A program made the position numbers and the translations under genes. Source: Methyloversatilis sp. XJ19-49 (GTDB lineage: Bacteria > Pseudomonadota > Gammaproteobacteria > Burkholderiales > Rhodocyclaceae). From it: DNA of 52,994 nt. The notes below the pieces were generated by a model that had not been told where the DNA came from, made no database searches, and was given only the letters and a program-made list of their open reading frames with translations. The DNA lies in assembly GCF_024580145.1 (NCBI RefSeq), contig NZ_JANINI010000008.1:159069-212062 (forward strand). Reading direction: 5' to 3'. Numbering within the stretch: position 1 is the stretch's first letter; each line of letters begins with the position of its first letter. This document shows positions 50,560 to 52,994 of the stretch, piece after piece.

Positions 50560-52106
<1,547 letters not shown>

Positions 52107-52107
<1 letters not shown>

Positions 52108-52227
52108 GGTGCAAGATTCAAGTTGCAAGGTGCAAGTAGGCGCCGCAACGACCTGATCCCAATCCTCCGGCGGGTCATTCGACCCGCCGTGTTTTTTCTT
52201 GAACCTTGTACCTTGAGCCTTGCACCT
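52107..52227 (+). repeat. Paired heptad-repeat element at the guaB-guaA junction
   Basis: Left array: GTGCAAG, ATTCAAG, TTGCAAG, GTGCAAG (52109-52136), four heptads in perfect phase. Right array: CTTGAAC, CTTGTAC, CTTGAGC, CTTGCAC (52198-52225), four heptads in opposite orientation. The 30-base arms 52107-52136 and 52198-52227 are complementary at 25 of 30 positions. Between them lies a terminator hairpin. The right array ends 5 bases before the guaA ATG and replaces any ribosome site. Confidence 0.88.
52168..52197 (+). terminator. Intrinsic terminator between guaB and guaA
   Basis: CGGCGGGTC (52168-52176) pairs perfectly with GACCCGCCG (52181-52189) around ATTC, followed by TGTTTTTT. It lies inside the heptad-repeat arms, so formation of the large outer stem could compete with or assist it. 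Confidence 0.9.
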
Positions 52228-52230
52228 GCC

Positions 52231-52994
52231 ATGCACCACAAGATCCTCATCCTCGATTTCGGCTCCCAGGTCACCCAGCTGATCGCGCGCCGTGTGCGCG
52301 AGGCGCACGTGTATTGCGAAATCCACCCGGCCGATGTGAGCGACGACTTCGTGCGCGGCTTCGGTGCGCAGGGCGTCATCCTGTCCGGCAGCCACATGTC
52401 GGCCTATGAGGAAGAAACCGACCGTGCGCCGCAGGCGGTGTTCGAACTGGGTGTGCCGGTGCTCGGCATCTGCTACGGCATGCAGACCATGGCGCAGCAG
52501 CTGGGCGGGCGCGTCGAGGCGGGCACGGTGCGCGAATTCGGCTACGCCGAAGTGCGCGCGCGCGGCCACACGAAGCTGCTCGACGGCATCGAGGATTTCC
52601 GCACCGAGCAGGGCCACGGCATGCTCAAGGTGTGGATGAGCCACGGTGACAAGGTGACCGAACTGCCGCCCGGCTTCAAGCTGATGGCGTCGACCGACAG
52701 CTGCCCGATCGCCGGCATGGCCGACGAGGCGCGCCGCTTCTATGGCGTGCAGTTCCACCCCGAAGTGACGCACACCGCGCGCGGCGCCGACATCCTGCGC
52801 AAGTTCGTGATCGACGTCTGCGGCTGCGCCGCCGATTGGATCATGGGCGACTACATCGAAGAGGCGGTGGCGCGCATCCGTGAACAGGTCGGCGACGAGG
52901 AGGTCATCCTCGGCCTGTCCGGCGGCGTCGATTCATCGGTCGCGGCGGCGCTGATCCACCGCGCCATCGGCGACCAGCTCACCTGCGTGTTCGT
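52231..52994 (+). CDS. guaA: GMP synthase (glutamine-hydrolysing), 5' part
   Basis: Converts XMP to GMP with ATP and glutamine. Only the first 254 codons are in the window; the frame is open to the edge. The amidotransferase domain has [21 protein letters not shown], the nucleophile C81 in GICYGMQ, and H176-P-E in QFHPEV. The synthetase domain begins with the PP-loop SGGVDSS (230-236). The glycine motif reads [13 protein letters not shown] rather than the commoner LSGGP form, a variant I recall from other betaproteobacteria. No ribosome site precedes the ATG. Confidence 0.97.

Follow-up and report, generated by a model that had tools for sequence, protein, structure and literature searches.

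Inverted heptad arrays between guaB and guaA of Methyloversatilis, a probable gene-less member of a dispersed PF05635-associated element

In Methyloversatilis sp. XJ19-49, the junction between two genes that we take to be guaB and guaA (names given in an earlier reading of the bare sequence) is occupied by two inverted arrays of 7-bp units, which enclose a terminator-like hairpin. The window, i.e., the whole stretch of 52,994 nucleotides that was analysed, ends within guaA; the closest guaA relatives are found in Methyloversatilis metagenome-assembled genomes (98% and 94%). The junction comprises the following features:

50626..52107, + strand: guaB (IMP dehydrogenase) frame, the upstream host gene; start codon assigned mechanically
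52107..52136, + strand: 5' arm, four CAAG heptads (GTGCAAG, ATTCAAG, TTGCAAG, GTGCAAG)
52168..52197, + strand: intrinsic-terminator-like hairpin between the arms, with a 9-bp stem, a 4-nt loop and a T-run
52198..52227, + strand: 3' arm, four inverted heptads (CTTGAAC, CTTGTAC, CTTGAGC, CTTGCAC)
52231..52992, + strand: guaA (GMP synthase), the downstream host gene, first 254 codons; continues beyond the window end

The first base of the 5' arm is also the final base of the guaB stop codon (TGA, 52105-52107), and the 3' arm ends 3 bases before the guaA ATG (52231). Each arm is 30 nt long with the heptad unit NTNCAAG, and a repeat search found the arms to be 61 nt apart and complementary at 25/30 positions (83%). 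Both the coordinates and this search confirm the four heptads on each side of a terminator that the sequence-only reading had described. The stem of the hairpin is formed by 52168-52176 and 52181-52189, and its T-run lies at 52192-52197. The same reading had held that the strict 7-base period goes beyond ordinary spacer DNA, and this is borne out: CAAGNTNCAAG has five occurrences in the 53-kb window where 0.24 would be expected, all of them within the arms, and none of 200 shuffles was as stable as the predicted RNA fold of 52090-52240 (-61.1 kcal/mol, z -6.4). The guaB-guaA arms are well above chance expectation.

The CAAG heptad is found at many unrelated loci of the same genome (G000, in which the window is C44:159069-212062; the prefixes G, C and L denote genomes, contigs and loci). 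A pattern of three CAAG units gave 30 forward and 156 reverse matches genome-wide, against 1 and 4 for the reversed control; most of the reverse matches must be supplied by a 970-bp satellite on contig C17 that consists of TTCAAGA units and belongs to the CAAG heptad family (G000:C17:882-1851, L151). The genome search for paired arrays that had been proposed with the sequence-only reading returned 17 overlapping matches at 8 places, using an inverted-pair pattern with an inner gap of 30-60, and 0 with the reversed control. The guaBA pair itself falls just outside this pattern, since it has 61 nt inside. Two array-boundary patterns had 20 matches each, with 1 and 0 in the controls, and the genome stretches that were read contain ten gene-less inverted CAAG pairs, whose arms have 2-7 units and enclose 8-31 bases, besides eight single CAAG arrays. 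Because these counts exceed their controls, the guaBA arms are one of many such arrays and not a product of chance. Within a genus sample of 13 Methyloversatilis genomes, including G000, the inverted-pair pattern was found in seven, and the reversed control in none.

One of the CAAG pairs of this genome encloses a gene. The only match to PF05635 (23S_rRNA_IVP/S23, a four-helix bundle) in G000, on contig C34, sits between inverted CAAG arrays (CAAGNYN arms) with the same heptad as the guaBA arms. The arms are flush with the stop and start codons of the neighbouring genes at this junction, which was named gmd|fcl from the translations. The PF05635 matches of G002, G005 and G010:C9 are likewise found between inverted CAAG arrays; in G002, the mechanically called fcl frame begins within the array. 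A further CAAG array lies within the fcl-containing open frame of G000:C34 (L141:3931-3955), where the protein stretch is longer than in G002. The encoded IVP protein matches TIGR02436 and the PDB entries 2gsc and 2rld, and weakly the Avd family (E 0.01). Its relative 2gsc has five chains, and the 2gsc protein has been called a pentamer in a paper.

The guaB|guaA junction itself exists in three states among the 13 genomes. CAAG arms around a terminator are present in six, including G000. In five others (G001, G003, G009, G010 and G011), inverted GGGGCTR heptads surround a PF05635 gene, and here, too, the element directly adjoins the guaB stop and guaA start codons. The remaining two, G007 and G012, have a hairpin and no arrays. 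The window copy holds only a terminator, and the PF05635 genes at this junction come with another heptad, so that the window copy can at most be a gene-less member of the class. G004, G006 and G008 have CAAG arrays and no PF05635 match. A second guaA fragment (residues 151-254, 94%) with an internal stop lies at a contig end of G000 (G000:C21:9624-9935, L131) and may be a duplicate, a remnant or contamination.

The sequence-only reading had considered a regulatory RNA switch in purine synthesis. A local cis-regulatory RNA, in which the arm stem sequesters the guaA start, alters the folding of the terminator and tunes guaA relative to guaB, would fit the very stable predicted fold and the position of the right arm next to the guaA ATG. 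When the six CAAG-type genomes are aligned, terminator cells are 100% paired where both columns have letters, whereas the long arm stem is conserved only in part, with 84.6% of its cells paired. Three stem pairs have changed on both sides, which was reached by 10 of 500 shuffles, and none was found when the partner was slid by 1-3 columns. However, overall pairing was 88.1%, against 87.5% in shuffled alignments (121/500 as high), nine of the 27 stem pairs depart only through unpaired cells, and in five of the six genomes, an inner inverted heptad folds into a hairpin that competes with the long stem. The alignment of relatives suggested at the outset has thus given a divided answer, with three pairs changed on both sides and a pairing no better than shuffled. 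The outcome that had been named as contrary to a switch, i.e., arms that are absent or do not covary in close relatives, is half realised, as arrays are absent in 2/13 genomes and of another type in 5/13.

Several further observations bear on this explanation. Rfam 15 gave 0 matches above the gathering threshold in the window. No bias towards G.U was seen in the arm mismatches of the 55 PF05635 loci with arm alignments better than shuffles (96 vs 89, P 0.66), so that selection for RNA pairing is not shown and the complementarity may be kept by DNA processes. Similar arrays occur at many unrelated loci, guaBA is without arrays in two genomes, and a different element takes their place in five. 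A switch specific to purine synthesis is not upheld by these observations, and a dedicated cis-regulatory RNA is considered unlikely. A local effect on guaA expression is possible. A comparison of arm complementarity within and across genomes at orthologous sites (own above the cross mean in 29/32) drew on other inverted repeats and only one guaBA sequence, and is not relied on.

Of the options in the sequence-only reading, that of a repetitive element is supported: the CAAG heptad is dispersed, and PF05635 genes of several phyla have other heptads at their flanks. A class sample of 274 genomes includes 57 with a PF05635 match. Outside G000, there are 67 class matches, and 61 loci were read; G079, G221, G186, G189 and G128, which are below the family cut-off, were left out, as was a second match of G213 that lies within L211. 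Together with nine genus loci, these make up a flank set of 70 loci. One flank is missing in L194 and L199, L208 has an N run, and L198, L204, L207, L209 and L213, which lack a tblastn match, were placed by profile-match coordinates. A flank was taken to hold an array if its period-7 score was >=17 of 28, and a locus was considered strong at 87 bits or more.

The mean best period-7 score of the 70 loci was 19.9 upstream and 19.5 downstream of the gene, whereas other periods (5, 8, 10, 11, 13) scored 12-13 in the same flanks. The threshold was reached in 53/70 upstream and 55/70 downstream flanks, compared to 17/256 far segments and 3/77 of the 300-base segments before guaA in named relatives (77 of 80), including the M. 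discipulorum copy. Arrays were present on both sides in 44 and on at least one side in 63 of the 68 loci with both flanks. For the strong class loci (52, of which 50 were evaluable), these numbers were 38 and 49, and the two arms aligned better than 50 shuffles in 44/49. The nine weak class loci had arrays on both sides in two and on either side in five, with arms above shuffles in 5/9; for the nine genus loci, the corresponding numbers were four, nine and 8/9. By comparison, arms were above shuffles in 5/65 pairs of far segments and 9/68 swapped loci. Upstream and downstream units are reverse complements of each other, with a similarity of 5.82 of 7 within loci (n = 44), compared to 3.64 between loci and 3.66 in the direct orientation. 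The heptads differ from locus to locus and fall into 43 rotation classes in 56 loci. A common core such as YNAG, suspected by eye, did no better than shuffles. No rRNA match was found in the 20 of 70 loci scanned; tRNA genes are near two of these 20.

PF05635 relatives are also found on plasmids, with 20 records, 15 of which were read (H9 and H12-H15 were left out). Thirteen of the loci read are cyanobacterial, one is from Bacteroidota and one is alphaproteobacterial. Their arms aligned above 50 shuffles in 14/15, and arrays were present on both sides in 13/15; the exceptions are L229 (cas10|cmr3), which has no array above the threshold, and L222, which fails the arm test. On three cyanobacterial plasmids, the PF05635 gene is found between cas genes (L219, L223 and L229; cas6|cas4 twice and cas10|cmr3).

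The heptad of an element follows its protein. Protein and heptad similarity are correlated over 54 loci (Mantel r 0.32, with 0/2000 permutations as high), and the mean heptad similarity, out of 7, falls from 5.0 at protein identities >=60% to 4.0 between 50 and 60% and to about 3.5 under 40%. Furthermore, dispersed arrays tend to share the heptad of the resident gene. Triples of CTAGNNG occur in all five genomes with CTAG PF05635 arms (34, 23, 13, 5 and 3 matches), in four of 52 other positive genomes (25, 4, 1 and 1) and in none of 18 negative genomes (18 of the 20 listed genomes without a match; G017 and G030 were left out). Triples of CAAGNYN occur in all six genomes with fitting CAAG arms (201, 87, 32, 14, 12 and 3 matches) and in one of the 18 negatives, with one match. 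The tie is clear, albeit not exclusive.

These data also bear on the possibility that the PF05635 gene is only a passenger and that the arrays belong to a host-wide hairpin system, serving, e.g., transcript processing or quadruplex/hairpin regulation (cf. Rehm 2015 and MacGregor 2015, on other heptads). This would agree with the many arrays and single PF05635 match of G000, and with the CAAG arrays of G004, G006 and G008, which have no match. However, an array flanks one or both sides of the gene in 49 of 50 strong PF05635 loci, and among the 18 genomes without the gene, the two test heptads together produced a single match. A passenger role seems rather doubtful in the light of these numbers.

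The elements have a marked preference for junctions between co-directional genes. Orientation was assigned by reading-frame scoring and could be called on both sides in 43 of the 70 loci; both neighbours were in the sense of the PF05635 gene in 39, both were antisense in one and three were mixed. Stricter scoring left 33/34 with both in sense and 1/34 with both antisense. The neighbouring frame was within about 126 nt of the PF05635 match in 28/34 loci on the left and 29/34 on the right in the stricter set, the right frames being taken from stop to stop. The upstream arm was purine-rich in 36/43 loci. L193, which was scored as mixed, has its element between same-strand tRNA genes of one cluster (L193:1326-1945). 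Eight of the 12 plasmid loci with both neighbours annotated have the gene in sense.

Within the genus, the elements are not always inherited along with the genes around them. Between G001 and G003, guaB and guaA are 95.7% and 95.6% identical and the element 73.6%, while between G009 and G003, the genes are 90.4% and 90.9% identical and the element 95.1%. In the guaB tree, G002, which has CAAG arms, groups with G003 and G001, which have GGGG heptads and the gene (supports 0.96 and 0.95), and G009, with GGGG heptads and the gene, groups with G000, G004 and G005, all of the CAAG type (support 0.96). Supports in the guaA tree were lower, and G010 is absent from both trees. The discordant identities and the trees suggest that elements are exchanged or re-inserted at the same junction. 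A junction read as nirB|nirD has CAAG heptads in four genomes and GGGGCTR-like heptads in five, and at orthologous junctions, the array is missing from G012 at sites D and G and from G002 at D. Another dispersed inverted repeat, TTGGGCATCGC...CACCCCAACCTACGG, is found in intergenic positions of G009/G010 at sites D, F and I (L254, L255, L265, L286 and L288).

Could slippage alone account for all this? In such a scheme, 7-bp microsatellites could arise anywhere, and template switching at quasi-palindromes would convert them to inverted pairs, with no need for an element or a protein. The number of units does differ among species at one junction, the CAAG heptad has given rise to a 970-bp satellite, and the missing G.U bias is as expected of a process at the DNA level. 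However, this leaves the PF05635 genes between arrays in several phyla unexplained, as well as the tie of the heptad to the protein and resident gene and the sense bias at co-directional junctions. Slippage by itself is consequently regarded as quite improbable.

The guaB-guaA feature probably belongs, as a copy without a gene, to a dispersed and selfish element that consists of heptad arms and a PF05635 gene. A complete element would be a short PF05635 gene (23S_rRNA_IVP/S23p/TIGR02436) between inverted arrays of 7-bp units, and would occupy a junction of co-directional genes, in most cases with its own gene reading in their direction; since it would be co-transcribed at such sense junctions, it should do little harm to the host. 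The sequence-only reading had listed a protein-binding array as another option, and the four-helix protein is a candidate binder. It would most likely bind the heptad that is repeated in its own element, in the form of DNA or RNA, and would drive the spread of complete copies and, in trans, of gene-less copies, with catalysis supplied by the host. PF05635 is not known to have a catalytic domain. The window copy has the inverted, mutually complementary arrays of 7-bp units that mark the class, and would descend from a gene-bearing copy. In the transcript, its arms may form a long stem that RNase III could cleave, by analogy with 23S rRNA intervening sequences (IVSs).

A number of observations weigh against this interpretation. 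The window arms have no PF05635 gene between them and enclose only a terminator, which makes the derivation of the window copy indirect. The protein-heptad signal is gone below about 50% identity, and part of the Mantel signal is plain descent, because close relatives at shared junctions were included. The heptad types of the genomes were assigned by eye and not blind. There are exceptions to the CTAG rule in G134 (25 matches), G242, G020 and G000; CAAGNYN triples also occur in 12/51 positive genomes that are not of the CAAG type, and G069 has 155 CAAG matches (reversed control, 106) despite TTCAGTG arms at its PF05635 gene. The search for a universal heptad core yielded 2.89 bits, compared to a mean of 2.65 and a maximum of 2.92 in 60 nulls. 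Three of the 12 plasmid loci are antisense to both neighbours, and one is mixed. Guanine-uracil mismatches, as described above, are not favoured in the arms. The pair G001/G011 is concordant (90.8/91.0/91.6%), as are other pairs, and homologous recombination is another process by which elements could have been swapped from one species to another. At nine junctions, each compared with 5-8 genus genomes, neither a target duplication nor an empty site with clean edges, as for a MITE of a transposon, was evident by eye; this comparison was made without G001, G003, G007 and G011 and without relatives of site J (L023).

The source of catalysis is another such point. RVT_1 reverse transcriptases were sought in 38 genomes (all 13 genus genomes and, G000 aside, 25 of the 56 class genomes with a PF05635 match), and no match was found in G000 or in 20 of the 33 PF05635-positive genomes searched. 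The remaining 13 of 33 do have RVT_1, and the five negative genomes do not. Because RVT_1 is absent from G000 and from most positive genomes, a route like that of Avd, via a resident reverse transcriptase, is disfavoured. Avd (phrog_3206), the accessory protein of diversity-generating retroelements, belongs to a related four-helix-bundle family, according to one paper (PMC10053308); G000 differs from these systems by its lack of an RVT_1 match.

In its proposed working, the element would resemble the REPIN/RAYT system, where a single resident gene is flanked by repeats whose sequence is also found in dispersed inverted pairs. RAYT itself is a Y1 transposase, and the present repeats differ in being 7-bp tandem arrays. 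The class is not shown to belong to any named system.

Other parallels come from published work. The IVS of Coxiella, with its S23p open reading frame (ORF), has been called a selfish genetic element and is reported to be trimmed by RNase III (Warrier et al. 2016, PMC4990558). Like the present elements, it has complementary ends that form a stem and a PF05635-type ORF that runs in the same sense as the host transcript. Its ORF is preceded by short heptamers (GACAGAT), whereas here, the whole arms are heptad arrays. IVSs reside in rRNA helices, whereas the present elements are found between protein genes and have dispersed gene-less copies with the same heptad. The window feature shares the long stem from complementary ends, but is located between guaB and guaA and not in 23S rRNA.

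The GGGNATC heptads of Xanthomonas and Nostoc, which form 70 and 75 inverted pairs in two genomes of Xanthomonas, were read as G-quadruplex formers that are "generally" unassociated with mobile elements (Rehm et al. 2015, PMC4692102). Like the present arrays, they consist of 7-bp units and are over-represented in non-coding DNA between aligned ORFs. Unlike them, the CAAG heptads (NTNCAAG) have no G-tract. The TAACTGA repeats of Beggiatoaceae are 7-bp arrays near start codons with a patchy distribution over distant phyla, as here, but are nearly all direct repeats, in contrast to the inverted arms; their author floated a mobile repeat-binding protein (MacGregor 2015, PMC4679880). TAACTGA-type heptads flank the PF05635 gene in one class locus of the present survey, L158. 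The terms "four helix" and "S23" are absent from the available text of PMC4692102, as are "S23", "four-helix" and "intervening" from that of PMC4679880. S23p ORFs in rRNA IVSs (one with heptamers), the Xanthomonas/Nostoc heptads and the Beggiatoaceae TAACTGA repeats are already in print; in the literature searched, as far as its text was available, no paper joined PF05635/S23p elements with the latter two, and S23p together with heptamers appeared only in PMC4990558, for one rRNA element.

A broader proposal can be put forward more tentatively. PF05635/S23 genes may define selfish operon-junction elements across phyla, with the end arrays serving as an element-specific 7-bp "address" for the element's own protein to read. 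The orphan arrays in Methyloversatilis and, if the idea is extended, in Xanthomonas, Nostoc and Beggiatoaceae might then be gene-less offspring of elements that are mobile without a transposase or reverse transcriptase of their own.

The PF05635/S23p family, whose function is unknown, has been encountered mainly in 23S rRNA IVSs, and the 7-bp arrays of several phyla have so far had no agreed origin. The association counsels caution before arrays beside essential genes (guaA and, by our reading, nirD, lpd, tRNA clusters and cas operons) are taken for dedicated regulatory switches. Once the two are joined, the heptad of an element becomes a ligand that can be tested with its protein, and the origin of the arrays can be tested as well.
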